DNA of 64,000 nucleotides, taken from NCBI RefSeq assembly GCF_902833045.1, contig NZ_CADFDU010000002.1, positions 1 through 64,000 of the forward strand. The letters are read 5' to 3'. Position numbers and translations under genes: made by a program. Below are positions 35,178 through 50,416 of this stretch, one piece after another. The notes under the pieces are model-generated. The model was not told the origin of the DNA and ran no database searches. It saw nothing but the letters and a program-made list of their open reading frames with translations. Position 1 is the first letter of the stretch, and each line of letters begins with the position of its first letter. This stretch comes from Burkholderia sp. BCC0322. Lineage in GTDB: Bacteria > Pseudomonadota > Gammaproteobacteria > Burkholderiales > Burkholderiaceae.

Positions 35178-36347
35178 TCAGGCGCGCGGCATGCCGAGCA
35201 TCCGTTCGGCGACGATGTTGCGCTGGATCTCGTTGGTGCCCGCGTAGATCGTGCCGGCCTGCGCGAACAGGAAACCGTCGAGCCAGTGGCCGAGCGCCGC
35301 GTGCTGCGCGGCCGTCTGCGGGACGACCTCGCCGTGCGCGCCGAGGATGTCGAGCGCGGTCTGGTGCATGCGCAGGTCGAGCTCCGACCAGAACACCTTG
35401 TTGGTGCTCGACTCCGCGCCGATATGGCCGCCCTTCAGCAGCCGGCTTGCGGTCGCGTAGGTCGACAGCGCATAGGCCTGCGCATCCATCCACGCCTGCA
35501 CCACCCGCTCGCGCAGCGTCGGATCGCGCTCGGCGCTGTCGCGGTGGGCGAGATACAGGTCGCGCAGCAGCTGGGCGGTGCGCTGGAACCGCGCCGGCGA
35601 ACGCAGCATCAGCCCGCGCTCGAACCCGGCCGTCGCCATCGCGACCTGCCAGCCCGCGCCTTCGGCCGCGAGCCGGTTCTCGACCGGCACGCGCACGTCG
35701 TCGAAGAAGATTTCCGCGAAACCCGTCTGCCCGTTGAGCTGGCGGATCGGCCGCACCGTGATGCCCGGCGCGGACAGCGGCACCATCAGGAACGTGAGCC
35801 CGTGATGACGCGACGATTCCGGGTCGCTGCGGAACAGGCCGAACAGCCAGTCGGCCCACACCGCGCGGGTCGACCAGATCTTCTGTCCGTTCAGCACGTA
35901 TTCGTCGCCGATGCGGGCGGCCGTCGTGCGGATCGCGGCCATGTCCGAGCCCGCGTTCGGCTCCGACCAGCCCTGCGCCCACACGTGCTCGCCGGCCGCC
36001 ATCGCGGGCAGGAAGCGCGCCTTCTGCTCCGCCGTGCCGAAATCCATCAGCGTCGGGCCGAGCAGGAAGATGCCGTTCTGGTTCACGCGCATCGGTGCGT
36101 CGGCACGCCAGTACTCTTCCTCGAAGATCAGCCACTCGATCAGGTCGCAGCCGCGCCCGCCGAGTTCGCGCGGCCACGTGACCATGCTCCAGCGGCCCGA
36201 GTGCAGCGTGCGCTCCCACTCGCGGTGCGCGGCGAAGCCTGCCTCGGTGTCGAAGCTCGGCAGCCGCTCGCGCGGCACGTGCGCGGCGAGCCATTCGCGG
36301 ATCTCCGCGCGGAACGCCTGTTGCCGCGGCGTATAGGTCAGGTTCAT
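35178..36347 (-). CDS. fadE31: acyl-CoA dehydrogenase, FadE31-like
   Basis: 389 aa. Strongly like FadE31: WAQGWSEPNAGSDMAAIRTT, NGQKIWSTRAVWADWLFGLF, RHHGLTFLMVPLSAPGITVR, GAESSTNKVFWSELDLRMHQ and the end YAGTNEIQRNIVAERMLGMP. It probably forms a heteromer with the FadE32-like product from the next gene. The stop overlaps nothing, but its start overlaps the echA20 stop by four bases, so translation is coupled. Confidence 0.85.
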   Translation of the reverse strand: MNLTYTPRQQAFRAEIREWLAAHVPRERLPSFDTEAGFAAHREWERTLHSGRWSMVTWPRELGGRGCDLIEWLIFEEEYWRADAPMRVNQNGIFLLGPTLMDFGTAEQKARFLPAMAAGEHVWAQGWSEPNAGSDMAAIRTTAARIGDEYVLNGQKIWSTRAVWADWLFGLFRSDPESSRHHGLTFLMVPLSAPGITVRPIRQLNGQTGFAEIFFDDVRVPVENRLAAEGAGWQVAMATAGFERGLMLRSPARFQRTAQLLRDLYLAHRDSAERDPTLRERVVQAWMDAQAYALSTYATASRLLKGGHIGAESSTNKVFWSELDLRMHQTALDILGAHGEVVPQTAAQHAALGHWLDGFLFAQAGTIYAGTNEIQRNIVAERMLGMPRA

Positions 36348-37153
36348 GCGCGTGCCTCCCCGGCGGTTGCCTGCACGTCGAAACGCGCATCGCGCTTCTC
36401 GACGAACGCGGCGCGCGCCTCCGTCGAATCGTTCGTCAGGTACGCCTGCAGCGTGAAGCCCTGCTCCCAGCGGTACTTGTCCTCGAGATCGCCGTCCTCG
36501 ACGCCGTTCAGCGCCTCCTTCGCGAGCCGTACCATCGCCGGACTCTTCTCCGCGATCTTGCGGGCGATCGCGAGCGCCGCGTCGCGCAGCATGTCGCGCG
36601 TCACGACCTGCTCGACCGCGCCGAGCAGGTACGCTTCGGCCGCGTCGATCAGGTCGCCGGTGAAGTACATCGCGCGCACCTTCTGCACGCCGAACAGCCG
36701 CTGCAGATGCGCGCCGCCGCCCATCGCGCCACGGTCGATCTCAGGCACGCCGAAGCGTGCGCAGTCGGCCGCGACGACGATATCCGCCGCGCCGCAGATG
36801 CCGATCCCGCCACCGAGCACGAAGCCGTGCACGGCCGCGATCACCGGCTTCGGGTTGCGGTGCACCGCGCGAAACGTCTCGTAGTTGCCTGCGTTGACCG
36901 CCACGATCCGCTCCGGGTGCGCGGCCAGTTCCTTGATGTCGACGCCCGCGCAGAAGCCGCGGCCCTCGCCGCGCACGACGATCACGCGCACGTCGTCGTC
37001 CTCGCCGAGTGCGTCGAGCGCCCGCGAGAGCGCGTGCCAGCCCTGCGCGTCGAGCGCGTTCACGGGCGGATGGGCGATTACCAGTTCGGCGATGCCGTCG
37101 GCACGATCGATCCGGAACGGCGTCGCGCCGGCCGGGGGGTTGGATGCTGTCAT
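36344..37153 (-). CDS. echA20: crotonase family ring-opening hydrolase, EchA20-like
   Basis: 269 aa crotonase. The segment GRGFCAGVDIKELAAHPERI and the end KEALNGVEDGDLEDKYRWEQ followed by GFT are the pattern I associate with EchA20, which opens ring D of the HIP-derived CoA ester. The oxyanion glycines are in FVLGGGIGICGAADI. It overlaps the FadE31-like gene by four bases and follows ipdC by 25 bases; in mycobacteria echA20, ipdA and ipdB are adjacent too. Confidence 0.86.
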   Translation of the reverse strand: MTASNPPAGATPFRIDRADGIAELVIAHPPVNALDAQGWHALSRALDALGEDDDVRVIVVRGEGRGFCAGVDIKELAAHPERIVAVNAGNYETFRAVHRNPKPVIAAVHGFVLGGGIGICGAADIVVAADCARFGVPEIDRGAMGGGAHLQRLFGVQKVRAMYFTGDLIDAAEAYLLGAVEQVVTRDMLRDAALAIARKIAEKSPAMVRLAKEALNGVEDGDLEDKYRWEQGFTLQAYLTNDSTEARAAFVEKRDARFDVQATAGEARA

Positions 37154-37178
37154 CTCCTCTGCCTCCCTGTGATGGTGT

Positions 37179-38267
37179 TCACGCGGCCTGTGCCGCCGGC
37201 GCGGCGCGCAGCGCGGCCAGTGCGTCGAGCCGCTCGCCGGCTTCCGCGACGATCCGCGCGATCAATGCGTCGCACGATTCGATCGCGCCGATCATCGCGG
37301 CCGCCTGGCCGCTCGGCAGCACGCCCTCATCCGGATGGCCGTCGACGATCGCGCGCTGGATCAGGAACGGCGCATTCGCGGCCATCAGCGTCTGGCTCGC
37401 GGTGTAGTCGTGCGAGCGCAGCGCCTTGATTGCCAGGCCGAGCATGTCGCCCGTGCTCAGGCCGTTCCGGCGCCGCCATGCTTCGGCGGTCTTCAGCGCA
37501 AACAGCGTGCGGCGCAGCGGGCCGAAACGTTCGAGCTTCAGCAGATACGGGTTGTCGATCATCCGTTGCGGCAGCCCGTCGAGTGCGTCCGACACGCGAA
37601 TGCGCGCCGGGTCGCCGACCGCGACGTAGCGCTCGAGCGTCTCGCGCGGCACCGGCGATTCGGTGCTCATCAGGAAGCGCGTGCCCATCGCGATGCCGGC
37701 CGCGCCATACGCGAGCGCGGCGGCCAGCCCGCGCCCGTCGAAGAACCCGCCGGCCGCGACCACCGGCACGCGCACCGCGTCGAGCACCTTCGGCAGCAGC
37801 AGCGTGGTCGGCACCGAGCCCGTGTGGCCGCCGCCTTCCGCGCCCTGCACGGTGACGATGTCCGCGCCGAGTTCGACAGCCTTCGCCGCATGCTTCGGCG
37901 CGCCGACGGTCGGCATGCAGACGATGCCCGCATCCTTGAAGCGGCGGATCGTCTTCGCATCGGGCCCGCGGCCGTAGCTGACCGCGCGCAGCCGGTGCTT
38001 GATCGCCAGTTCGACGACCTGTTGCGCATTCTTCTGGAACATGTGGAAGTTGATGCCGAACGGCTGGCCGGTCAGCGACTTCACTTTCAGGATCTCGGCC
38101 TCGACCTGCCCGGGTTCGAGCGTCGCGCCGGCCAGGAAGCCGAAGCCACCGGCGTTGCTGGTGGCCGCGACGAGCCGCGCATCGGCCACCCAGCCCATCG
38201 CGGTCTGCACGATCGGATAGCGGCAGCCGAGCAGGTCGCACAAGGGCGTATGCAGCGTCGTGCTCAT
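37179..38267 (-). CDS. ipdC: nitronate-monooxygenase-type flavoprotein, IpdC
   Basis: 362 aa TIM-barrel FMN protein of the 2-nitropropane dioxygenase superfamily. Motifs: QTAMGWVADARLVAATSNAG at the N-terminus, QGAEGGGHTGSVPTTLLLPK, AAGGFFDGRGLAAALAYGAA and GTRFLMSTES. IpdC reduces an intermediate before C-ring hydrolysis in HIP degradation. Placement between the crotonase genes and IpdAB supports this assignment over a true nitronate monooxygenase. It overlaps the previous gene by four bases. Confidence 0.87.
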   Translation of the reverse strand: MSTTLHTPLCDLLGCRYPIVQTAMGWVADARLVAATSNAGGFGFLAGATLEPGQVEAEILKVKSLTGQPFGINFHMFQKNAQQVVELAIKHRLRAVSYGRGPDAKTIRRFKDAGIVCMPTVGAPKHAAKAVELGADIVTVQGAEGGGHTGSVPTTLLLPKVLDAVRVPVVAAGGFFDGRGLAAALAYGAAGIAMGTRFLMSTESPVPRETLERYVAVGDPARIRVSDALDGLPQRMIDNPYLLKLERFGPLRRTLFALKTAEAWRRRNGLSTGDMLGLAIKALRSHDYTASQTLMAANAPFLIQRAIVDGHPDEGVLPSGQAAAMIGAIESCDALIARIVAEAGERLDALAALRAAPAAQAA

Positions 38268-39190
38268 GCGGCGGCTCCGTTGACGGCGACCGGCGCGGGC
38301 GCGTGCGCGTCGCTACGGTCCGCGCCGTTCGGCTGGCGCTGCGAGCTGGCCATGCTGCGCGCGTCGTAGCCGCCGAGGCGGTCGCCGCTCACCAGCTCGT
38401 TGTGCGCATGCGCGAAGTGATGCCACGCGAACGCCGCGTCCATTGCCGCACGCTTGCCCTGCAGTTCCTCGACGTGGTTCAGCGCCTGCTTGGTCAGCGC
38501 GAGCCCGAGGCGCGGCATCGTCGCGATCCTCGCGGCGATCGCATAGGTCGCGTCGCACAGCCGCTCGCGCGGCACCACGCGGTTGACCATCCCCATCTGG
38601 TACGCGCGCTCGGCCGGCATCCGCTCGCCGAGGAACAGGAATTCCTTCGCGATGCGCGGGTTCAGCTCGTACGCATGCGCGAAATACTCGACGCCCGGAA
38701 TCCCCATTCGCACGACCGGATCGGCGAAGAACGCATCCTCCGACGCGACGATCAGGTCGCACACCCACGCGAGCATCAGCCCGCCCGCTATGCACGCGCC
38801 CTGCACCATCGCGATCGTCGGCTTCGGCAGGTCGCGCCAGCGCCGGCACATCCCGAGGTACACCTCCTGCTCGCGGGCATAGAGGAATTCGCCGCCGTCC
38901 TTGTCGACGTGGTCGTACCACAGCGATGCGCGGTCGAACGACTCGTGAATGTCGCGGCCCGGCGTGCCGATGTCGTGGCCCGCCGAGAAATGCTTGCCTG
39001 CGCCAGCGAGCACGATCGCCTTCACCGCATCGTCGTGCGCCGCGCGCCGGAACGCCGCATCGAGCGCGTACGTCATCTTCGAGTTCTGCGCGTTGTGATA
39101 CTCGGGACGGTTCATCGTGATCGTCGCGATGCCGCCGTCGACCGCGTAGTCGACGACACCGTCGCCGAAGCTCACCTGGGTCGCTTCCAT
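38264..39190 (-). CDS. enoyl-CoA hydratase/isomerase family protein
   Basis: 308 aa from ATG 39190, preceded by GAGG; an in-frame ATG at 39202 is possible. Crotonase motifs: MNRPEYHNAQNSKM, AGAGKHFSAGHDIGTPG, QGACIAGGLMLAWVCDLIVA, MGIPGVEYFAHAYEL. The C-terminal ~35 residues are a low-complexity proline/alanine tail. It lies between ipdB (8 bases) and ipdC (overlap), so it acts in C/D-ring or propionyl-side-chain oxidation. Which hydration step it catalyses is not resolved. Confidence 0.85.
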   Translation of the reverse strand: MEATQVSFGDGVVDYAVDGGIATITMNRPEYHNAQNSKMTYALDAAFRRAAHDDAVKAIVLAGAGKHFSAGHDIGTPGRDIHESFDRASLWYDHVDKDGGEFLYAREQEVYLGMCRRWRDLPKPTIAMVQGACIAGGLMLAWVCDLIVASEDAFFADPVVRMGIPGVEYFAHAYELNPRIAKEFLFLGERMPAERAYQMGMVNRVVPRERLCDATYAIAARIATMPRLGLALTKQALNHVEELQGKRAAMDAAFAWHHFAHAHNELVSGDRLGGYDARSMASSQRQPNGADRSDAHAPAPVAVNGAAA

Positions 39191-39198
39191 GTCGGACC

Positions 39199-39996
39199 TC
39201 ATCCCCGGCGCGGCGCCGGATTGTTGCGCACGATCGTCGCGCGCAGGTTGTGCGGATCGAGCGCGCGCACGATGCGCAGGTCTTCCGCGTTCGGCGGGGC
39301 CGTCGTGTCGATGTCGGGTGCGGCGATCAGCGGGAAGCCCGTCGCGTCCTGCACCTCGTCGAAGCTCACGCCCGGATGCAGCGAGCGCACGCGGATCGCG
39401 TGGTTGGGCCCGCCGAAATCCATCACGCACAGGTCGGTGACGATGCTGCGCAGGTCGACGAAGGTCTTCATCCCGGGCAGCCGGCGCGCCGGGTTGTAGC
39501 CGACCGTGCACACCATGTCGACTTCGTGTTCGACGAACGTGCGCTTGCCGTGGCCGCTCACGAAGAACGAGTTCGCATGATTCGTCGTGTTGCCGGGAAA
39601 GCCGCGTGCGCCGAGCAGCTGGGTTTTCGGGCGCGCGTAGTCGTCGCCGAGCCACGAGATGTTGGCCTGGCCGAAACGGTCGATCTGCGTCGGCATCACG
39701 AGCGCGTGGCGGCGGCCGTGCCACAGGCAGTCGAACACGCGCTCGTAGGTCATCCAGCCGCTCGCCTTCACGCGATAGCCGACGGGGCGCGGGCCGAGCG
39801 GCACCGGCTCCTCGACGAGGTACGCTTCGCCGTCGGTCAGCATCAGCCCGTTGTTGTACGCGAGCCGCGCGAGGCCGGCCGCGAGCCGCGGGCCCGTACC
39901 GATGCCGGTCGCCAGCACTTCGCCGTCGTCGCGCCAGAGTCGCGCGGACGCGACGATCATCAGTTCCGCGAGGGAATGGTCGAGAGATTCGCTCAC
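39199..39996 (-). CDS. ipdB: CoA-transferase-like ring hydrolase beta subunit
   Basis: 265 aa class I CoA-transferase-fold beta subunit: WHGRRHALVMPTQIDRFGQA, SWLGDDYARPKTQLLGARGF, GNTTNHANSFFVSGHGKRTF, MDFGGPNHAIRVRSLHPGVS. IpdAB does not transfer CoA; it hydrolyses the last carbocyclic ring (COCHEA-CoA) in steroid degradation. It pairs with ipdA 10 bases upstream. The classical catalytic Glu of CoA transferases is not evident, in line with the hydrolase role. Confidence 0.9.
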   Translation of the reverse strand: MSESLDHSLAELMIVASARLWRDDGEVLATGIGTGPRLAAGLARLAYNNGLMLTDGEAYLVEEPVPLGPRPVGYRVKASGWMTYERVFDCLWHGRRHALVMPTQIDRFGQANISWLGDDYARPKTQLLGARGFPGNTTNHANSFFVSGHGKRTFVEHEVDMVCTVGYNPARRLPGMKTFVDLRSIVTDLCVMDFGGPNHAIRVRSLHPGVSFDEVQDATGFPLIAAPDIDTTAPPNAEDLRIVRALDPHNLRATIVRNNPAPRRG

Positions 39997-40006
39997 AGGC
40001 GCTCCT

Positions 40007-40900
40007 TTACAGAATCGGCAACGGCAGCGTCGTCACGTGCGACAGGCCGCCGACGCCGTCGAGGTACTGGCGTTCGTCCCGGCCGACCACGTCGCGCAGG
40101 TACGCCGTCGTTTTCGCGTCGTCTTCCGCGCTGGCGCAGTACGCGCGCAGGTGCGGCAGGTCCCAGCCGTAGGCCGGCCCGCACGACGTGGGATGCGCGC
40201 CGCCCGGCGCGTGCACCACGCCCGTGACGAGCGCGCGCTCGAACGGGTTGCGCTTCGCGGCGTCGAGGTCTTCTGTCGCAATCGACGAGTCGACCCGTTC
40301 CGCCGACACGTAGCAGCGCTGCGCGGCCCGCGCCATCCACGCGTCGAAAAACGGATCGGGGCCGTCGATGCGCGTGTTGCCCATCCGGTCGGCCGCGTTC
40401 ACGTGCAGCAGCGCGACGTCGAGTTCGATCGCGGGCATCGCGAGCAGCGTCTCGCCATCGCCGTACGGCGACTGCACCGTGCGCAGTTGCGGTGCGTGAT
40501 CGAGCAGCGCGGTGCCGAGCCCGGCGCGGGTCGGCAGGAACGGCAGGCGCGCGGCGGCCGCGCGCAGGCCGAGCTGCAGCATCCCTTCATCGAGTTCGAG
40601 CACGTCGACGCGGCCCTGCTCGCGGGCGCGGCGGAAATGCGGCTCGAGCGGAATCACGTCGAGCGACACGAAGCCGAACACCACCTTGCGCACCTTGTCC
40701 GCCGCGCACAGCAGCCCGACATCGGCGCCGCCGTACGCGACGATCGTCAGGTCCTTCAGGTTCGAGCGCGCGATTTCGCGCACCAGCGCCATCGGCTTGC
40801 GCCGCGGCCCCCATCCGCCGATGCCGATCGTCATGCCGTCGGCGAGTTGCGCGACCACGTCGCGCGCGGACATCGTCTTGTCGAGAGATTTCATCGTCAT
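40007..40900 (-). CDS. ipdA: CoA-transferase-like ring hydrolase alpha subunit
   Basis: 297 aa. N-terminal GMTIGIGGWGPRRKPMALVR is the CoA-binding loop typical of alpha subunits. AYGGADVGLLCAADKVRKVV and HVNAADRMGNTRIDGPDPFF follow. With IpdB it opens the final ring. It starts 9 bases after hsaC and is the second gene of the minus-strand operon. A ~60-base piece of this gene (40663-40722) recurs in the remnant at 43890. Confidence 0.9.
   Translation of the reverse strand: MTMKSLDKTMSARDVVAQLADGMTIGIGGWGPRRKPMALVREIARSNLKDLTIVAYGGADVGLLCAADKVRKVVFGFVSLDVIPLEPHFRRAREQGRVDVLELDEGMLQLGLRAAAARLPFLPTRAGLGTALLDHAPQLRTVQSPYGDGETLLAMPAIELDVALLHVNAADRMGNTRIDGPDPFFDAWMARAAQRCYVSAERVDSSIATEDLDAAKRNPFERALVTGVVHAPGGAHPTSCGPAYGWDLPHLRAYCASAEDDAKTTAYLRDVVGRDERQYLDGVGGLSHVTTLPLPIL
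40663..40722 (-). repeat. parental segment of the duplicated ipdA fragment
   Basis: This 60-base part of ipdA matches 43890-43950 with scattered mismatches and one indel. The first 28 bases, starting GCGACACGAAGCC, are identical. It is in the same orientation as the remnant copy. Confidence 0.8.
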
Positions 40901-40909
40901 CGTGCTGGC

Positions 40910-41806
40910 TTACCGGTATCCGATGCTGAAATCGTGGCCCCACTGGCTCACCTTGGTGGCCTCGAATACCGCGTGCTTCGACCAGTCGACCGTGAGGCCG
41001 CCGAAGCCGTATTCGAGATCGAAGCCGCCGGGGGTCTTCATGTAGAAAGAGATCATCTGGTCGTTGCAATGACGGCCGAGCGTCGCGGACATCTGCACGT
41101 CGTGCATGGCCACGCGATCGAGCGCGCGCCCCACTTCGTCCATCGAGTCGACTTCGGCCATCACGTGCACGCAGCCCGACGGCACGGCCATCTCGAACAG
41201 CGCGAGGCTGTGATGGCGCGCGTTGCGGCAATGCATGAAGTGGATGCGTTTCTCGGGTTCGGCCGGATCGGGCGTGAACTTCACGCGATAGATGTCGGAC
41301 AGCTCGAAGCCGAGCACGCCGCGCACGAATGCGTCGGTCGCATCGAACTGCGGCGCGGGCAACACCGCGTGGCCGAGCCCCATGTCGCCGGTGACGAAAC
41401 GCGCGACGCCCAGCGGCGACACGAAGCGGCGGAAGTCGCAGCGCGCGCCCCAGTACAGTTCGTGGCGGTTGCCGGACGGGTCGATGCACCACGCCATCGC
41501 CTGCACGCGGCGCAGCGCGGCTTCGGCGGGCGTCGCGCGCACCGGCTCGACGCCCGCACGCTGCAGCGCCGCAAGCGCGGCGTCGAACGCGACGCCGTCG
41601 GGCAGTTCCCAGCCCGACGCGAAATAGCGGTCGGTCGAGCCGGGAACGATCACGTAGCGGAAATCGCGCTCGTCCATCTTCAGGTACAGCGCGCCGTCGG
41701 GCGCGTCGAGCGCCTGCATGCCCAGCACGTCTTCCGCGTAGCGGCGCCACGCATCGACGCGCGTCGCCTCGACGACGACGTAGCCAAGCGCACGGACATC
41801 GATCAT
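40910..41806 (-). CDS. hsaC: 3,4-DHSA extradiol dioxygenase
   Basis: 298 aa from ATG 41806, preceded by GGAGGAGG. Two-domain VOC-fold type I extradiol enzyme; the iron ligands fit His146 (MGLGHAVL), His198/199 (RNARHHSLALFEM) and Glu265 (GGFDLEYGFGG). It opens the catecholic ring A of 3,4-dihydroxy-9,10-secoandrostatrienedione. First gene of the ~19.5-kb minus-strand run ending with kshA. The 5' end and promoter are copied at 43955-44148. Biphenyl-diol dioxygenase is an alternative reading discounted by context. Confidence 0.9.
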   Translation of the reverse strand: MIDVRALGYVVVEATRVDAWRRYAEDVLGMQALDAPDGALYLKMDERDFRYVIVPGSTDRYFASGWELPDGVAFDAALAALQRAGVEPVRATPAEAALRRVQAMAWCIDPSGNRHELYWGARCDFRRFVSPLGVARFVTGDMGLGHAVLPAPQFDATDAFVRGVLGFELSDIYRVKFTPDPAEPEKRIHFMHCRNARHHSLALFEMAVPSGCVHVMAEVDSMDEVGRALDRVAMHDVQMSATLGRHCNDQMISFYMKTPGGFDLEYGFGGLTVDWSKHAVFEATKVSQWGHDFSIGYR

Positions 41807-41898
41807 GTCGGCCTCCTCCAGGTTCAGAATCCGTTGTTCGTGAAAGGATTCTGGCCGGTCGGGGGTGGCGTTACATCGTCTGTTGGGACGAGAGGCGG
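41705..41898 (-). repeat. direct repeat copy A: hsaC 5' end plus promoter
   Basis: These 194 bases match 43955-44148 over their full length without gaps; I count about seven mismatches. They span the first ~34 codons of hsaC and ~92 bases upstream. Both copies lie in the same orientation, 2250 bases apart, flanking the GSCFA gene. Confidence 0.93.
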
Positions 41899-42351
41899 CG
41901 GGGAACGGGACGTTCGCGAAAGCCCGGCGGGACGGCGCGGGCATGTGGGAGGACTGGGAAAACGCGGATCGGTTGCGGTCGGGTTGTTGCCAGGTTGTTG
42001 CCGGACGCTTGCGAACCGGAAACGGGATCAGCTCATCGACTGCCTGCCCCGGGCATTCGCAGCGGCAGGAAGGTCATCACGCGCACGCCGGTGACGGCAT
42101 TCGATACGCATCCGGCGGTCGAAATGGGGAGCCTGCGGCGCAATGCCCGGATCCCCGCACCGCGCTTTCAATCCATCACCTGCACGAGCCACTCTAAAGT
42201 TTGGCACGAACGATGCCGATATGATGCCCACGACTGAACGTCCAACACGCGTGTCACATACTTGTCATGGCTGCGCTCGATCGGGCGGAACGCTCAAGCA
42301 AAATTGCGCGTAGCTGATTGGAAAGCTCGAAGCTCACTACGGAAACGTCAG
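41807..42351. other. divergent intergenic region hsaC / GSCFA gene
   Basis: 545 bases. The first ~90 hold the hsaC promoter and the shared motif. The remainder, up to about 42230, has no supported gene; GC falls towards the GSCFA gene, marking the edge of foreign DNA near 42180. Confidence 0.6.
41873..41888 (-). promoter_or_regulatory. shared motif upstream of hsaC
   Basis: Plus strand ACATCGTCTGTTGGGA. The same 16 bases with one change (ACATCGTCTGTTTGGA) occur at 54795-54810 upstream of the LLM-monooxygenase gene, and again in the remnant at 44123. The site is 67 bases before the hsaC start. A shared steroid-pathway regulator site is proposed; the regulator is not identified. Confidence 0.5.
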
Positions 42352-43797
42352 ATGGATATCAGTAGCTGGAAGGATCAAGCGAAACAGGCGCTTGCCAGAA
42401 ACACCGGTGCACAAGATGCAATCGCCCTGCTAGGCGACAGTCGCGTCGAAAATCTTGACTGGGAAGTCAACCTTTATCTTGGCATTCTCTATGGCCAAAC
42501 CGGGCAGCTGAACCTTGCCGTCGAATGTCTTCAACGATCACTTGGCCAAAACCAGCGGAATCCTGACGCGATATTCTTCCTGGGGTGCTTTCACGCCTTG
42601 CAGTTTCCCGGGTTCCACAAGAGCTGGGCCATTCGGCGGGACCACGCAAAGAGCGCACTCCGCCTTGTCGAAAATACCGCTGAAGCCGCGACGTGGCCCC
42701 AACTGAAACTCTGTCTCGAGATGCTGGCGACGGCGGCAACCTATGTCGGTCCTTCTGAGGATGCGGAGTTCGCCTATCGTTGGCTGATCAAGATCGATCC
42801 GGCGAATGCCGATCACTACGCCAATCTCTCCCAACTCCGCGCAAACGACGACCTCGAAGAAGCCGTTGCACTTATCGATACGGCACAAGCAATCAACCCT
42901 GCCGTTGGCAACAGGACCGACATTGAATTTTCCCGCAAAGTGCTTTCGGATGGTGCGCGGCGAAAAACGATTGCACGGGCAAAGTATCCAACCACGCAAG
43001 AAATGAGACAGGACTTGAAGGCCGTGATCCGGTCCACCTTGTTAAACGGCTTGCAGAAGGAACGTTTCATCGACAAGGGGACGCGGCTCTTTACGCTCGG
43101 CTCGTGTTTTGCAAGAGAAATTGCCGTACGTTTGATAGAACGGGGCTATCAGGCTGACTTCTTTGAAGTCGTCGAACACATCAATTCAAGCTTCGCAAAC
43201 CGCAGCATGGTTGATTGGGCGTTAGGTCAATGCATGGGCCAAAGCCGGGAGCGGCTCGACGAACTGTTTGCCTCACTCAATATTACCCCGGAGAATCTCA
43301 GAGCCCGGTTGGCTGCTGCAAATGTGTTCGTCTATACACTTGGTGTAGCTCCTGCCTTCTTCGACAGACAATCCGGCGAATTCGTGATGCCTTCGAATTC
43401 GACGCTCGGCTCGCGTGCGTTTGCAGAGATGTACGATTTTCGTACTACTACGGTCCAGCAAAATCTGGACAACCTTGAATACATTGTTTCTCACGTCAAG
43501 GCGTTGAATCCCGACATCAAGATCGTGCTTACTGTCAGCCCCGTGCCGCTAAAGACCACGTTCGAGTTCAAGTCCGCGATACAGGCGGATTGCATTTCCA
43601 AATCGACGCTCCGTGTTGTCGCTCACGAATTCGTTACTAAAAACCCCGAAGTCATCTATTGGCCCAGCTTCGAGATCGTACGCTGGCTGGGCGGACATGT
43701 AGGACCGTATTATGGCAACGATGACGACGCGGCGCTTCATGTGGGCGACGATGTCGTCAAGGCGATCACGGATTCATTTATCGAGCACTTTTCGTGA
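42352..43797 (+). CDS. TPR-containing GSCFA-domain (SGNH hydrolase-like) protein
   Basis: 481 aa from ATG 42352; an alternative TTG start at 42262 would add a basic 30-residue N-terminus. Residues ~1-200 are tetratricopeptide-like helices (LGILYGQTGQLNLAVECLQR, NPDAIFFLGC). The C-terminal ~270 residues are a GSCFA domain: GSCFAREIAVRLIERG (block I nucleophile Ser), SPVPL (block III region), and a late DDDAALHVGDD with the Asp-His pair. GSCFA proteins are SGNH-like, often with surface polysaccharide genes; here there are none. Lower GC and non-Burkholderia codon use than the neighbours point to recent transfer. Followed by its own terminator. Confidence 0.85.
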   Translation: MDISSWKDQAKQALARNTGAQDAIALLGDSRVENLDWEVNLYLGILYGQTGQLNLAVECLQRSLGQNQRNPDAIFFLGCFHALQFPGFHKSWAIRRDHAKSALRLVENTAEAATWPQLKLCLEMLATAATYVGPSEDAEFAYRWLIKIDPANADHYANLSQLRANDDLEEAVALIDTAQAINPAVGNRTDIEFSRKVLSDGARRKTIARAKYPTTQEMRQDLKAVIRSTLLNGLQKERFIDKGTRLFTLGSCFAREIAVRLIERGYQADFFEVVEHINSSFANRSMVDWALGQCMGQSRERLDELFASLNITPENLRARLAAANVFVYTLGVAPAFFDRQSGEFVMPSNSTLGSRAFAEMYDFRTTTVQQNLDNLEYIVSHVKALNPDIKIVLTVSPVPLKTTFEFKSAIQADCISKSTLRVVAHEFVTKNPEVIYWPSFEIVRWLGGHVGPYYGNDDDAALHVGDDVVKAITDSFIEHFS

Positions 43798-43820
43798 AAG
43801 CTGCCCCACGTCAGCTTTTT
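43797..43820 (+). terminator. Rho-independent terminator of the GSCFA gene
   Basis: AAAGCTG (43797-43803) pairs with CAGCTTT (43812-43818) around an 8-base loop, with a T-run to 43820. It begins at the last base of the stop codon. This makes the gene a self-contained transcription unit. Confidence 0.75.
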
Positions 43821-43889
43821 GCAGTCAGGTGACAGCCGAGGTTTGCCTTACGAATTGCCGCGCCAACAGCATCGGTAGCAACCGCTGAT

Positions 43890-43950
43890 GCGACACGAAG
43901 CCGAACACCACCTTGCGAACCTTTCCGGCCGCGCACGGCAGTGCCGACAT
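43890..43950 (-). pseudogene. ipdA fragment in the second copy
   Basis: About 61 bases matching ipdA positions 40663-40722; the reading frame encodes a KVRKVVFGFVS segment as in IpdA. It is fused almost directly to the hsaC fragment at 43955, so about 980 bases of intervening ipdA-hsaC sequence are missing. Confidence 0.85.
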
Positions 43951-43954
43951 ACGT

Positions 43955-44148
43955 GTCGAGCGCCTGCATGCCCGGCACGTCTTCCGCGTAGCGGCGCCAC
44001 GCATCGACGTGCGTCGCCTCGACGACGGCATAGCCAAGCGCACGGACATCGATCATGTCGGCCTCCTCCTGGTTCAGAATCCGTTGTTCGTGAAAGGATT
44101 CTGGCCGGTCGGGGGTGGTGTCACATCGTCTGTTGGGACGAGAGGCGG
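43955..44148 (-). pseudogene. hsaC 5' fragment and promoter, second copy
   Basis: It repeats copy A at 41705-41898, including the hsaC ATG (equivalent at 44056), ribosome site and upstream motif (44123). The encoded peptide (IDVRALGYAVVEATHVDAWR and on) runs out of hsaC sequence after ~34 codons. It therefore cannot make a dioxygenase, but its promoter may still fire leftwards. Confidence 0.92.
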
Positions 44149-44204
44149 AGAGGAAACGGACGGGGGCGGGACGGCCTCGACGGGAGTGCGGCGGGGGTTC
44201 GGTC

Positions 44205-44430
44205 AGCCGGGGAGGCGCGCGGCGGCCCGTGGCTCGTCAATCTTGCCATGCCGCCGACACTTAACGGCACGGCCTTCGGCAACGCCACCTCGCACCATGC
44301 TGTGGTCGGCGTAAAGAGCTGGGGTGATACGGATTCCGCGGTGAAACGGCAACGCGCGTAGCCGTTCACGAGCAGCAACCTCGTGACGCTCGTGAATACC
44401 GTATGCGGCAGCACGCCGGCAGCGTGTTGA
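44205..44430 (+). pseudogene. trypsin-like serine protease, C-terminal remnant
   Basis: In one plus-strand frame, sequence resembling the end of secreted trypsin-like proteases reads GEARGGPWLVNL, then HHAVVGVKSWGDTDSAVKRQ. The catalytic motif GDSGGPW is replaced by EARGGPW, so the serine is lost. A TAG at 44359-44361 breaks the frame, but the same frame continues PFTSSNLVTLVNTVCGSTPA and then stops near 44430. Everything upstream of the GDSGG region is missing. It is a dead fragment, probably brought in or left by the same rearrangements as the hsaC copy. Confidence 0.7.
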
Positions 44431-44563
44431 CGGCAGCCTGACGTAACACGTCGCGCGTGGCATTGCGTTCGTCGTGCCGAGTCGGCGCCGCCGGCCGACG
44501 CTTCACGCGACGCACGCTCTGCGTTGCCCTGGGCCAACCCGCGCTTCGGTCGAACGCGCGACG
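44431..44563. other. short unassigned stretch
   Basis: No gene recognised. A GC-rich dyad, GTCGGCG with CGGCCGAC near 44481-44500, could act as a transcription stop for the protease remnant side or the toxin gene side. Confidence 0.3.
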
Positions 44564-44980
44564 CTAGTCGAACGGATTCACCAGCCGGACTCCCGTCTTC
44601 TCGAAATCGCCGACGTTGCGGGTGACGACCGTCAGGTCGTTGATGAGCGCCGTTGCGGCAATCAGCTTGTCCAGCGCGTGCTCCGGATGCGGAGCACGCA
44701 GGTGGCCCCACAACTGGCCGACATCGATGTCGATCGGCAGGATGTTGGGCGCATAGTCGGACATGAGCGCGGCCAGCCAGGCATCGAGTGTCGACGCCTG
44801 CTGCGTATCGCCGCGGCGGCGGATCATCTCGACGCCGCGGCGTAGTTCGGAAACCGTCACGACGGACAGGTAGAGACTGCTGCCGTCGTTTCCGGCTTCA
44901 CGGAAGAACGCGCGCACCCCGCTGTTCGCGCGCTTGCCCTTCCTGATTTCGCTGATGACGTTCGTATCAATCAAAAACAC
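44564..44980 (-). CDS. PIN-domain toxin, VapC/FitB type
   Basis: 138 aa from a GTG at 44980 with GAGG upstream. PIN ribonuclease acidic residues are visible: Asp5 (LIDTNVISEIRKG), Glu45 (SELRRG), Asp104 (DKLIAATA) and Asp125 (NVGDF). Length and motifs match FitB. The start overlaps the antitoxin stop by 14 bases, so the two are co-translated. Expected to cleave RNA when free of antitoxin. Confidence 0.92.
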   Translation of the reverse strand: MFLIDTNVISEIRKGKRANSGVRAFFREAGNDGSSLYLSVVTVSELRRGVEMIRRRGDTQQASTLDAWLAALMSDYAPNILPIDIDVGQLWGHLRAPHPEHALDKLIAATALINDLTVVTRNVGDFEKTGVRLVNPFD

Positions 44981-45203
44981 GCCTGACCTCGCCGGAATCC
45001 TGAACACGTTGGAAATCCGCGTCTTCGCCAACATCGGGCATGCTCATCAGCACTTGCGCAAATGTCCTTCGCTTCGGCCGGCCGAGTGCATCGGCCAGAA
45101 TGGCTCGATGTTCGGCCTCGGCACTCCTGCCATTTGCCGCAGCCTGCTCTCGCAGGCTCTGAACGATACTGTCATCCACGTTACGCACCAGAAGATTTGC
45201 CAT
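44967..45203 (-). CDS. FitA/VapB-type antitoxin
   Basis: 78 aa from ATG 45203 behind GGAGGG. The N-terminal ribbon-helix-helix is typical of FitA: NLLVRNVDDSIVQSLREQAA, then NGRSAEAEHRAILADAL. The C-terminal tail would wrap the toxin. It should also repress its own promoter, just upstream. Part of the insertion hotspot between hsaC and fadD3. Confidence 0.92.
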   Translation of the reverse strand: MANLLVRNVDDSIVQSLREQAAANGRSAEAEHRAILADALGRPKRRTFAQVLMSMPDVGEDADFQRVQDSGEVRRVFD

Positions 45204-45609
45204 AGGTCCCTCCATCCAGGTTGCTATCAATGATAGCGCCATGACGGTGAATTGCAAGCATTGCTATCATCGTCACGAATGGATGGAAGACGAGGGTTGG
45301 CGTCGGCCAACGGCAGCAGCCAGCATGAATCCACCCGGCTTCCGCCGCTCGCCCGACACGTCGAACTGCTGTCCGCAAGGTAAGGCAGATCGGAACGACG
45401 TAAAAGACGGCCGAACGGCTATTCGCAGACAGGCGGCACGCGTGGACCCGCGCAGGGCGGCGTCATTCATCGCTTCCGCGTCGATCACGCAACGCAGCCC
45501 CCATCCGTCGACGCATTCGGGATCGCAGGCAACCGTTGTCAAACCCCTAACCCTTGTCGGCAAATATCGACACTAGCCCGGCCCGCACGCACAACGGCAA
45601 CCCGACCAC
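45204..45609. other. 406-base gene-free stretch upstream of the toxin-antitoxin pair
   Basis: It contains the antitoxin promoter and the 3' side of the outer-membrane protein gene. No further gene or obvious repeat was seen; frames here are short and lack ribosome sites. Confidence 0.45.
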
Positions 45610-46269
45610 TCAGAACCGATACGAAATCCCGATCTGCAACACCGGGTACCACCGATAGCGCGACATCACCTGCCGCAGCGAATCCAGCCCGCTCGTGGCA
45701 AGGATCTGGCTCTTCGCCGGTCCGGCCGCGGCCGCGAGTTCCGGCGACAGCGTGTACGAACATTTCGGTATCCCGTACGCCACGCCGAGGTCGGCGACGA
45801 ATCCCAGCCCCTTCGACGCCGGCCGATGCCCGTAGCCGATCCCGACATACGGCATCACGGCCGGATAGCGCGCTTCCGCCACCGCGTACATCCCCGGCAT
45901 CGCCGGATAGCGCTTGCCGCCGAACACGTAAGTCCCATTGGTCGGCACCGATACGCCGCGCAGTTCGTCGTCGCTGAAACGCAGGCCGAGCGTCGCGCGG
46001 AAGCCGCTGCCGCGCCACGGAAAGATGTCCGCGTACAGGCCACCCTGGCGCAGTTTCAGGTCGTCCTGATAGCGATTGCCGGCCACCGTGAAGTCATGCG
46101 AAAGATCGATCGCATTGAAGTCCGCATGCGCACCCAGCATCGAATTGAAGCTCACGGCCGCGCCGATGCCGACGCCCTGCGTGCCACCCTGCAGGTAGAT
46201 CTCCTGCGCGTGCGCGCTCGCGGCGCACATCACCGCCACCGCTGCCCATTGGTTCGCCGTCATTTTCAC
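45610..46269 (-). CDS. hypothetical outer-membrane beta-barrel protein (219 aa)
   Basis: The start is GTG at 46269, with GGAGG six bases upstream; this adds two residues to the ATG at 46263. A short signal peptide ends at SAHAQ. The mature protein has alternating hydrophobic strands and a terminal Phe (QIGISYRF), as in OmpW-like or surface-antigen barrels. A Cys in the GIPKCSYTL loop is notable. Function unknown; adjacent genes give no clue. Confidence 0.7.
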   Translation of the reverse strand: MKMTANQWAAVAVMCAASAHAQEIYLQGGTQGVGIGAAVSFNSMLGAHADFNAIDLSHDFTVAGNRYQDDLKLRQGGLYADIFPWRGSGFRATLGLRFSDDELRGVSVPTNGTYVFGGKRYPAMPGMYAVAEARYPAVMPYVGIGYGHRPASKGLGFVADLGVAYGIPKCSYTLSPELAAAAGPAKSQILATSGLDSLRQVMSRYRWYPVLQIGISYRF

Positions 46270-46997
46270 GGGCGCCTCCCCCGACTTGTGCCGGGCGCGC
46301 CTCGCCAACGCATGCGGCCTGCGCCGCGCTGCGTGATGCGAGCCCCGACACGACACCTTGCAAGCACGCTTGCTGTTCGACGGATCGGGAACACGTTGCC
46401 CGGTGCGCATCGCCGATACGACATGCGCAGCGCAAGCGCCGCAACATACGGCACCCGCGGCCCGATCCGATTCCCCGTTTCTATCGATGTCGTTGCATGC
46501 CGCGGATGCGCTCATCGTTGTTGCGACATTCGTTTGCGCCAGCGGCACCGGGTCAACCGCAAAGCGCGTGCCATGCGGCGCAAACCGAAGCGGGACAAGC
46601 GTCACCGTCACACACAGGCGGTCACGACGGTCGCAATCCGGGGGAAATGTTTCAGGAACGTATCCGCATTCGGCGGGACACGCGGGAACACGCGATTTGA
46701 TCTATCGCGCATCGAGATCGGAACGCATGCCGAACTAGGCTGGAAAGCCGTCAGCGCGTGCAAGTCGTCGTTGCAGTCAATCGAGTCGGGCGAGGCACAT
46801 TGACGAAACGTTGCAAAACTTCGACCTCGCGCCGGGTGCACGCGATGCGGATGCGCAATCGTGCGTGACGAGACAGGGTGAACACCGATGCGTGCGCATG
46901 CATCTTGCCGGTGTCGCGCACGGAAGCGATACGCGAGCCGATCGGCAAACCGGCCAGCGTCGTCGACGCGCTGGAGAAGGGGGATAGGCAGGCTCTG
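46270..46997. other. 728-base region without a supported gene
   Basis: Frames on both strands are short, lack ribosome sites and are low in complexity. Part of it may be decayed coding sequence left by the event that truncated the SDR gene at 46998, but I cannot identify any family. Confidence 0.4.
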
Positions 46998-47174
46998 TCA
47001 GCGACCGGGGCAACCGACGTCTCGCGCGACACGCTCGGCCACGTCGGCCTTGCTGCGGTACCCCACCGCGACCGGCACGCCGGCGCGCGTAAATTCGAGC
47101 GCGACACCCTGCCCGATCCCGCCGCTGCCGCCGAACACCAGCACCGCGCCCTGCGGAAACCCGTTGTCGTTCAT
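46998..47174 (-). pseudogene. SDR family oxidoreductase, 5' stub
   Basis: From ATG 47174 the frame encodes an N-terminal SDR nucleotide-binding segment (GAVLVFGGSGGIGQGVALEF, then VPVAVGYRSKADVAERVAR) and stops after 58 residues at 46998. No continuation of the SDR fold is found in any frame downstream, so the gene was truncated by deletion or replacement. It lies 32 bases after fadD3 in the same direction. A working copy would have been a ~250-aa dehydrogenase of the steroid operon. Confidence 0.75.
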
Positions 47175-47206
47175 GCGTTCATCCCGTCCGTGTGTCGCGG
47201 CGCCGC

Positions 47207-48793
47207 TCAGGCCGCCGCCTCGCTCCCCGCCCGCAGGCGGTACTTCAGCACCTTCCCCGCGGCACTCGTCGGCAGTTGCGCGACGAACGTGAAATGCCGC
47301 GGCACCTTGTAGTTCGCCATGTTGCGGCGCGCCCAGTCGTTCAGTTCGTCGGCGTCCGCATGCGCGCCCGGCCGCAGGACGACATACGCGTGCCCGACTT
47401 CACCGAGTCGCGTATCGGGCACGCCGACCAGCGCAACCTGCGCAATCGCCGGATGTGCGGCGAGCAGCCGCTCGATCTCGGCCGGATAGCAGTTGAAGCC
47501 GCCGACGATGAACATGTCCTTGATACGGTCGGTGATCTTCAGGTTGCCGTTCGCATCGACGCAGCCGAGATCGCCCGTATGCAGCCAGCCATCGGCATCG
47601 ACGGTCTCGCGCGTCGCGTCCGGCTGGTTGAAGTAGCCGCGCATCACGTTGTAGCCGCGCACCCAGATCTCGCCGGTCTCGCCCGGCCCGAGCGGCGCGC
47701 CGTCCGGCCCCGCGATGCGCAGCTCGACATCCGGCATCGGCCGGCCGGACGTATAGGCAACCGTCTGGGCATCGTCGCCCTGACGGCACAGCGTCGCGAA
47801 ACCGCACGATTCGGTCAGCCCGTAGCCGGTCAGCACCGTCTCGAAGCCGAGCTCCGCGCGCATCCGCTCGATCAGGCTCGGCGCGATCGCCGCCGCGCCC
47901 GTCACCGCGATCCGCAGCGACGACAGGTCGCGCGTCGCGCGATCGGGGGCGTCGAGCAGCGCGTAGTACAGCGTCGGCGGGCCGGGCAGCACCGACACGC
48001 GATCGTCGGCGACGCGCCGCAGCACGTCGTCCGGCTGGAACACGAGATGCGGCAGCACGGTCGCGCCGCTCGACAGCGCGGCGAGCCAGCCGGCCTTGTA
48101 GCCGAACGTGTGGAAGAACGGATTGACGATCAGGTAGCGGTCGTCGTGGCGCACGCCCGCGATCGCCGCCCACGCCTGCGCGGCGCGCAGGTTCTGGCCG
48201 TGCGCGGTCATCACGCCCTTCGGGCGGCCGGTCGTGCCGGACGTGAACATCAGGTCCATCACTGTGTCGGGCGTCACCTGCGCCTCGCGTTCGCGCACCG
48301 CGGCCAGCGGCACCTCGGCGCCGCGCGCGAGGAACGCGTTCCAGGTCTCGTCGCGCGCACCGGGCGGCGGCTCGCCGTCGAACACGATGACGCGCTCGAG
48401 CGTCGCGGGCCGGTGCGGCGCGAGCATGGCCGGATAGGATTCGCCGAGGAAGGTGCCGCAGCAGAACAGCAGCCGTGCGCCGCCGTCGTGCAGGATGCCG
48501 CCCACCTCCATCCCCTTCATTCGCGTATTGACCGGCACGAGGATCGCGCCGACGGTGTGGATCGCCAGCGCCGCGACGATCCATTGCGGCAGGTTCGGCG
48601 CCCACACCGCGACGCGGTCGCCGGCCGCGATGCCGCTCGCGAGCAGCGCGCGGGCCGCGTCGAGGCGCGCCGCGTCGAGCCCCGCGTAGGTCAGCCGGCC
48701 ATGCTCCGACTCGATCGCCGGATGCGCGCCGTGTTGCATGGCTGCCCGTGCGATCAGCGCGGGCGTGGTCAGGATTTCGTTGTCCATCGTCAT
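47207..48793 (-). CDS. fadD3: HIP-CoA ligase
   Basis: 528 aa AMP-forming acyl-CoA synthetase. AMP-binding P-loop-like motif TSGTTGRPKG at about 184-193; further signatures TGYGLTESCG, TGDLG and the C-terminal lysine in SAAGKVLKYRLR. FadD3 activates HIP, the C/D-ring acid released by HsaD. It is downstream of kshB, hsaB, kstD and hsaA in one direction, 39 bases from kshB. Generic fatty-acid ligase is the alternative, but context favours FadD3. Confidence 0.86.
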   Translation of the reverse strand: MTMDNEILTTPALIARAAMQHGAHPAIESEHGRLTYAGLDAARLDAARALLASGIAAGDRVAVWAPNLPQWIVAALAIHTVGAILVPVNTRMKGMEVGGILHDGGARLLFCCGTFLGESYPAMLAPHRPATLERVIVFDGEPPPGARDETWNAFLARGAEVPLAAVREREAQVTPDTVMDLMFTSGTTGRPKGVMTAHGQNLRAAQAWAAIAGVRHDDRYLIVNPFFHTFGYKAGWLAALSSGATVLPHLVFQPDDVLRRVADDRVSVLPGPPTLYYALLDAPDRATRDLSSLRIAVTGAAAIAPSLIERMRAELGFETVLTGYGLTESCGFATLCRQGDDAQTVAYTSGRPMPDVELRIAGPDGAPLGPGETGEIWVRGYNVMRGYFNQPDATRETVDADGWLHTGDLGCVDANGNLKITDRIKDMFIVGGFNCYPAEIERLLAAHPAIAQVALVGVPDTRLGEVGHAYVVLRPGAHADADELNDWARRNMANYKVPRHFTFVAQLPTSAAGKVLKYRLRAGSEAAA

Positions 48794-48832
48794 CGATCAG
48801 GGTGGCCGCGCGCGCCACCGGCGCGCCACGGC

Positions 48833-49882
48833 TCAGTCGGGAAACACCACGCGCAGCGCGTCGCTCGCGGGGCGGGCGCAGCAGGCGAGCGTCCAGCCGG
48901 CCGCGATCTCGTCGTCGTCGAGCACGTGGTTGCTGTCGAGCGCGACCTCGCCGCGCTCGATCCGGCACATGCACGCGCCGCATTGCCCCATCCGGCAGGA
49001 ATTCGGCGCCGGCACGCCCGCGCGCAGCATCGCGTCGAGCAGCGTTTCGCCGGGCGCGCTGTCGAACGCGAACGCTTCGCCGTCGAGCACCATCTCGATC
49101 GCCGCGACGTCGCCCGACGCCGCGGCCGCCGCTGTGCCCGACGCAGCCGTCTCGGCAGCCTGCGCCGGCGCATCGGGCAGCGACGCGAAACGCTCGACGT
49201 GCACGCGGGCCCGTGGCAACCCGAGGCCGAGCATCGCGGCCAGCGCGTTCTCCATGAACAGCGCGGGCCCGCAGATGAACGTCTCCTGCTGACTGAACGG
49301 CCGTGCGAGTTCCTCGAGATGGCGCTGCTGCGGGATGCCCTGCACGCTGTCGAGCCAGTGGATCACGCGCACGCGGCCCGGATGGCGCTGCGCGAGCTGC
49401 CGCAGTTCGTCGCGGAAAATCACCGAGCGTTCGTCGCGGTTCGCATAGATCAGCGTCAGCATCCCGCGTCCGTGCACGAGCGCCGATTTCAGGATCGACA
49501 GCACGGGCGTGATGCCGCTGCCGCCCGCGAACAGCAGCAGGTCGCCGTCGAGCGTGCGCGGCGTAAACACGCCGGCCGGCGGCAGCACGTCGAGCGCGTC
49601 GCCCGCCTTCACGCGCTCGCACAGCCAGTTCGACGCGCGGCCGTCGCGCACCCGCTTGACGGTGATCTTCGGCGCGGCGTCGATGCCCGGCGCGCTCGAC
49701 AGCGAATAGCAGCGCGCGACGGTCGCGTCCGTGCACGGCACGTTCAGCGTCAGGAACTGACCGGGCCGGTACGCGAATGCGTCGCGCAACGCGGCCGGCA
49801 CGTCGAACACGAACGAGCACGCGTCGTCGCTTTCGGCAATCACTTCGGCAACGGTCAGCCGATGGAAGCGCGAATCGCTCAT
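48833..49882 (-). CDS. kshB: 3-ketosteroid 9-alpha-hydroxylase reductase component
   Basis: 349 aa. FAD motif RCYS (57-60), NAD motif GGSGITP (120-126) and a C-terminal plant-type [2Fe-2S] domain with Cys296, Cys301, Cys304 and Cys334/335. It transfers NADH electrons to KshA. A 60-residue alanine-rich linker (about 235-260) separates the domains, slightly longer than usual. It is 15 bases downstream of hsaB. The oxygenase gene kshA is 25 kb away. Confidence 0.9.
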   Translation of the reverse strand: MSDSRFHRLTVAEVIAESDDACSFVFDVPAALRDAFAYRPGQFLTLNVPCTDATVARCYSLSSAPGIDAAPKITVKRVRDGRASNWLCERVKAGDALDVLPPAGVFTPRTLDGDLLLFAGGSGITPVLSILKSALVHGRGMLTLIYANRDERSVIFRDELRQLAQRHPGRVRVIHWLDSVQGIPQQRHLEELARPFSQQETFICGPALFMENALAAMLGLGLPRARVHVERFASLPDAPAQAAETAASGTAAAAASGDVAAIEMVLDGEAFAFDSAPGETLLDAMLRAGVPAPNSCRMGQCGACMCRIERGEVALDSNHVLDDDEIAAGWTLACCARPASDALRVVFPD

Positions 49883-49897
49883 GGCCGGCTCCTCACG

Positions 49898-50416
49898 TCA
49901 CGCGGCCGCACGGGCCACCGGCGCGCCGGGCGTCGTGTAGGCGCCGTCGAGATAGACGAGCGGATCGACGTCGCCGCTCATCAGCACCTCGCGAATGCGC
50001 CCGATGAACACCGTGTGCGTGCCGTATTCGAAGCGGCCGTCCTGTTCGCACACGAGGCTCGCCTGTGCGTCGCGCAGATACGGCACGCCGTGCGGCGACG
50101 TGTGCCAGTCGCCGGTCGTGAAGCGCGCCTCGCCCTTCAGGCGGCCGCTGCAGTCGATCGCGATCCCTTCGTGGGCCGCCGACAACACGTTCACGCAGAA
50201 CCCCGCGCCCGCGTCGAGCGGCGGGTACAGCGACGCGCTGCGGTTGATGCAGATCAACAGCGAAGGCGGATCGGTCGACAGCGAATCGACCGCCGTCGCG
50301 GACATCGAGTAGCGCCGGCCGTCGTGCGCACTGCTGATGACCGTGACGGAGCGCGCGAGGCGGCGCATCGCGAGCAGCATGTCGGTGCGCAGCGGATGGG
50401 GGGTGAGGTCGCTCAT
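49898..50416 (-). CDS. hsaB: flavin reductase of 3-HSA hydroxylase
   Basis: 172 aa flavin reductase-like FMN-binding split barrel: ARSVTVISSAHDGRRYSMSA, then SLSTDPPSLLICINRSASLY and GEARFTTGDWHTSPHGVPYL. It supplies reduced FMN to HsaA, which hydroxylates the phenolic ring of 3-HSA. Its start overlaps the kstD stop by four bases. Context and size make HsaB much more likely than a generic flavin reductase. Confidence 0.86.
   Translation of the reverse strand: MSDLTPHPLRTDMLLAMRRLARSVTVISSAHDGRRYSMSATAVDSLSTDPPSLLICINRSASLYPPLDAGAGFCVNVLSAAHEGIAIDCSGRLKGEARFTTGDWHTSPHGVPYLRDAQASLVCEQDGRFEYGTHTVFIGRIREVLMSGDVDPLVYLDGAYTTPGAPVARAAA

Follow-up and report, generated by a model that had tools for sequence, protein, structure and literature searches.

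Homology-facilitated illegitimate recombination is described in PMC3240628 as one-sided homologous integration, and passages of PMC5361080 name Pseudomonas, Streptococcus and Acinetobacter in connection with it. That paper proposes this process for the displacement of T6SS effectors, and describes how T6SS effector genes of Vibrio cholerae are displaced one after another, which leaves orphan immunity genes behind. We analyzed a junction between a catabolic operon and a vapBC gene pair in a 64,000-nucleotide stretch of DNA from Burkholderia sp. BCC0322 (the window). Set beside the examples in these passages of the two papers, the junction would on our reading share with homology-facilitated illegitimate recombination an end in the vapB region that appears homologous, another end that appears to have been joined without homology, and two alleles lying side by side; it differs in that our reading is drawn from one mosaic, in that the right border is not unique, and in that the event would be old and decayed. 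With the V. cholerae loci as that passage presents them it shares the apparent entry of a new allele into a locus where part of another remains, whereas the window holds the start of a catabolic gene, a peptidase remnant and vapBC, with no selected orphan gene known. Proteins of the GSCFA family (PF08885) provide the third comparison, as the protein encoded between the two alleles has the full-length domain with a strong score and differs in a TPR-like N-terminal part that scores below cut-off and in the location of its gene at hsaC.

Layout of the junction in the window and in relatives

Searches covered 61 relatives and 65 Burkholderia genomes (49 of the 65 matched), and the window's own species is not among them; the nearest compared genome is G001, with 21% of sampled 31-letter words in common. 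Forty loci around hsaC or its remnant were fetched, leaving out G015 with its short match at a contig end, and the hsaC start was located in 39 of them, the exception being G021. The features of the junction are as follows.

40007-40900, minus strand: CoA-transferase subunit gene (ipdA of the earlier note), intact; Pfam CoA_trans
40910-41806, minus strand: hsaC-type extradiol dioxygenase gene, intact, part of which lies in repeat copy 1; Pfam Glyoxalase and BphC_D1
41693-41912: repeat copy 1, the hsaC 5' end and its upstream (promoter) region
41827-41851: palindrome GAATCC-N13-GGATTC upstream of hsaC, a possible operator by inferred function
41913-42167: spacer of the kind present in G037 and G033 (88-90% identity, counted from the start codon onward)
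42195-43797, plus strand: GSCFA cargo unit, comprising part of the relatives' upstream region and the gene
42352-43797, plus strand: gene for a GSCFA-domain protein of 481 aa; PF08885, E 1.6e-36
43798-43889: short stretch that matches none of the fetched loci at E up to 1e-3, presumed illegitimate joint at the right end
43890-43941, minus strand: ipdA fragment of copy 2
43943-44162, minus strand: repeat copy 2, the hsaC 5' end (about 35 codons) and promoter region, pseudogene
44077-44101: second, identical copy of the palindrome
44147-44212: copy-2 spacer of G079 type, which no other genome matches beyond 44171
44207-44514, plus strand: 3' remnant of a trypsin-like peptidase gene that is whole in G079 and G011
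44564-45034, minus strand: vapC-type PIN toxin gene, its allele most similar to that of G079; Pfam PIN
44967-45257, minus strand: FitA/VapB-type antitoxin gene; Pfam FitA-like_RHH

The name hsaC follows the earlier note and annotated Sphingobium matches. No second copy was found in the 39 hsaC loci, where the pieces of copy 2 match a single ipdA and hsaC, and none of these loci in other Burkholderia genomes has a GSCFA gene at hsaC; the arrangement of the window occurs in 0 of the 39. A vapC match follows hsaC in 36 of the 39, and there is none within the stretch examined in G028, G003 and G018. The distance from the hsaC start to vapC is 101-283 bp in 30 of these 36 loci and exceeds 800 bp in the other six, where it is occupied by an FkbM methyltransferase gene (G037 and G033), a trypsin-like peptidase gene (G079 and G011), a 130-aa ORF without assigned identity (G009) or a displaced fragment of the window's ORF at 45610-46611 (G010); these spacer genes were identified by Pfam in G037 and G079 only. 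The vapC match is just 138-157 bp long in G037, G033 and G011 (138-139 bp in the first two). No PLSDB record covered 80% of the query at one place, and of two Burkholderia records that were mapped, one carries a single-copy hsaC and the other a piece of hsaC with the peptidase gene region. In G012, G073 and G011 only the 5' part of hsaC (335, 534 and 864 bp aligned, respectively) remains beside vapC, with no match to ipdA in the DNA fetched, which means that the edge of the operon has also decayed independently in other genomes.

The repeat pair and its different flanks

The earlier note had described a 194-base direct repeat with about seven mismatches, and this is what we found: between 41705-41898 and 43955-44148 we count seven mismatches over 194 positions, and the longest exact run is 48 bp. 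The full ungapped repeat spans 220 nt (41693-41912 and 43943-44162, 93% identical), and no other repeat listed for 36000-50000 at a minimum of 25 nt is longer; a chance origin is excluded because of its length and identity. An ipdA match does accompany it as had been claimed, at 52 nt ungapped (40663-40714 found again at 43890-43941, 90% identical) and not the 60 bases first given; aligned to relatives with a gap, this piece of copy 2 reaches 43950 and measures 61 nt. The pieces of copy 2 retain the order and orientation of the original without the 978 bases (40715-41692) that lie between them there, so that the remnant consists of about 35 hsaC codons followed by the shifted ipdA piece. The promoter region of copy 2 has three changes, all outside the palindrome, which is unchanged. 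This GAATCC-N13-GGATTC palindrome may be the operator of a steroid-responsive regulator and is mostly conserved upstream of hsaC in the 39 relatives. Occurrences of the palindrome were counted with a pattern derived from the repeat itself, and this count is not an independent test. The promoter of copy 2, if still working, would read leftward, antisense to the GSCFA gene.

Beyond the shared core the two copies diverge into different flanks. The flank of copy 1 matches G037 to 42167 and G033 to 42157, whereas the G001 group follows it to about 41960 and G001 and some others match only the first 40 bp or so of the 41913-42167 spacer. In G037 the matching sequence extends exactly to the final base of the methyltransferase stop codon, and at this point the window turns to GSCFA DNA. 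The flank of copy 2 matches G079 to 44212 and continues into the peptidase remnant and then the vapC allele. The identity of this allele is 96.4% with G079, 72-83% with the remaining matches of at least 460 bp, and 90% with the 157-bp match in G011. Different flanks that match different genomes make the copies look like two alleles that were brought together. The 195-bp core of copy 2 shows five differences from G079 and the same number from seven other genomes, and since eight genomes are thus tied the core alone names no donor. At four positions where copy 2 differs from copy 1, the copy-2 states are present in 5 to 15 of 24 relatives, with G024 carrying all four.

The similarity profile on both sides is a mosaic. 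To the left, across 41001-41900, G001 is closer than G079 in six of nine 100-bp segments, with one tie and two lower. In 44101-45000 the best match is G079 in nine of nine segments, with G011 second best up to 44800; between 44201 and 44600 these two genomes alone have matches, so that "best" there is a choice of two. G079 is still closer than G001 in five of six segments of 45001-45600, where G078 is nearly equal up to 45400, and G001 is closer again in all eight segments of 45601-46400. Across the 53 1-kb bins in which both were measured, G001 is closer in 44 and G079 in 7, with 2 ties. The repeat, the different flanks, the mosaic and the peptidase remnant are all present in the DNA itself. 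The vapBC alleles are mosaic across the genus, as seen in G078, whose vapB is 98.7% identical to that of the window and whose vapC is only 82% identical. The segment 46601-47000 is closest to G078, which indicates further recombination.

The GSCFA gene between the copies

A low-GC GSCFA gene does lie between the copies as the earlier note had stated, at 42352-43797 with GC 0.533 and GC3 0.606, compared with 0.676 and 0.886 for hsaC; an alternative TTG start at 42262 is also open. The domain is matched over its full length at 126.6 bits against a curated cut-off of 25, and the TPR scores of the N-terminal part are below the curated cut-offs. Among solved structures this N-terminal part weakly matches O-GlcNAc transferase, which is uninformative on the GSCFA domain. 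A literature search for GSCFA together with Burkholderia found nothing, and the one paper returned for ipdA and hsaC with Burkholderia deals with mycobacteria.

Homologues with 75-85% amino-acid identity are present in 9 of the 65 genus genomes, always away from the hsaC site on another contig or stretch, and at E 1e-20 the gene has no match in the close relatives G001, G014 and G024. The gene lies downstream of tRNA-Pro(cgg) in four genomes (G029, G005, G023 and G032) and elsewhere in the other five; in B. stagnalis it adjoins sugar-transporter and chemotaxis genes. The ORFs flanking it in G005 and G029 resemble those for a polyprenyl synthetase and for a membrane protein of the CorC type. 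We take the gene for an accessory gene circulating in the genus because the GC of four measured homologues is 0.575-0.65 as against 0.533 in the window. A viral origin was rejected, as no relative was found in viral contigs.

The long DNA alignment of the GSCFA region begins at 42316, 36 bp before the start codon, and blastn with 42168-42352 alone gave no match at E 1e-3. Local alignment of 42168-42315 to the region downstream of tRNA-Pro scored above 1000 of 1000 resampled sequences at all four loci; the similarity covers 42195-42250 at most, and two of the four loci are nearly identical. On this short similarity, the gene was probably acquired together with some of the sequence upstream of it. 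A near match to a sigma-54-type promoter at 42202 was discarded, since the window holds six such matches against 2.7 expected. In 41700-44600 a sigma-70-type scan found none (1.1 expected), and the five terminator-like sites there (3.2 expected) were not used.

Origin of the arrangement

We favor, with moderate confidence, the view that two alleles of the hsaC-vapBC junction were fused by one-sided replacement, and we infer the direction, the order of events and the one-sided mechanism. The recipient would have been G001-like, with an intact operon followed by hsaC (copy 1), a spacer of G037/G033 type and the GSCFA unit, and the incoming segment, from a G079-like relative, would have carried ipdA, hsaC, promoter, peptidase and vapC. 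On the right side it would have entered by homologous recombination at about 45.0-45.6 kb, where the mosaic places the border, while its left end, inside ipdA, would have been joined illegitimately behind the GSCFA gene at 43889/43890, where there is no evident homology. The redundant incoming part would then have decayed by point changes and by loss of the 978 bp between ipdA and hsaC and of the DNA that separated the hsaC upstream region from the 3' end of the peptidase gene. Several points count against this fusion. The core of copy 2 singles out no donor, and in 44201-44600 G079 is the better of just two matching genomes. The distance to G079 (88-95% identity in 44.1-44.6 kb) would also suit an old allele inherited vertically, and the mosaic tracts continue, with G078 nearly equal to 45400 and closest again in 46601-47000, which leaves the right border without a unique position.

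The earlier note had read the second copy as a segment of the same operon that was duplicated and then deleted. The second, internally deleted copy stands; its origin from the same operon is not supported, since the flanks differ. A tandem duplication of ipdA-hsaC-promoter, with GSCFA at the joint, an internal deletion and one flank later changed by recombination, accounts for two copies in the same order and orientation with 7 mismatches in 194, and a duplication whose copy-1 side was later overwritten is an event that would yield the same final map. Such a duplication would place the same flank beside both copies, whereas the flanks here match different genomes and four differing positions are polymorphic in relatives. 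We regard it as unlikely, a plain duplication being less likely than the fusion of two alleles. On the favored view the junction is a case of ordinary mosaic evolution with a cargo spot. In a further reading, which we regard as unlikely, the hsaC-vapBC spacer of Burkholderia would be an integrase-free spot at which different species acquire different single genes (FkbM methyltransferase, trypsin-like peptidase, GSCFA) by recombination in conserved flanks.

Direct repeats flanking a cargo could also come from a Campbell-type single crossover of a circle, carrying a piece of hsaC and GSCFA, into hsaC, the reversal of which would excise the cargo; PMC3240628 includes a report of circularised DNA integrating by single crossing-over in E. 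coli. Against this, a Pfam scan of five ORFs in the interval and its edges (41865-44711, smaller overlapping ORFs left out) gave GSCFA and a weak TPR match in one and nothing in the other four, without integrase or transposase, and the model has no need of a mosaic that extends past vapC. We consider it improbable.

Recombination between the repeats is possible in principle and would remove 2250 bp, leaving hsaC with the promoter of copy 2. That an integrase-free island is excised now by RecA at a useful rate is very improbable, even with 194-bp repeats that contain an exact run of 48 bp and with a product that keeps an hsaC promoter, as the copies have drifted apart, the scanned ORFs include no mobility family, and a search of 65 genomes of the genus (E up to 1e-10), the window's own species not among them, returned the excised joint (copy-2 promoter into truncated peptidase gene) in none. 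The short spacers of relatives were rejected as excision scars: the spacers of 10 relatives differ from the excision product, and in 0 of the 10 is the spacer followed by the truncated peptidase gene, as it is in copy 2. The window contains no tRNA or tmRNA and so offers no tRNA attachment site for an island. A special excision system or excisable island is unsupported, and a low-GC gene enclosed by direct repeats is not necessarily a sign of one.

For annotation, 43890-44162 is better described as a pseudogene remnant than as a second hsaC. If the spacer is indeed an acquisition spot, the spare hsaC promoter would run antisense into the GSCFA gene and tie it to steroid metabolism. The junction illustrates how, where no mobile element is seen, the edge of a catabolic operon can gather individual accessory genes as well as alleles that stack up and decay.
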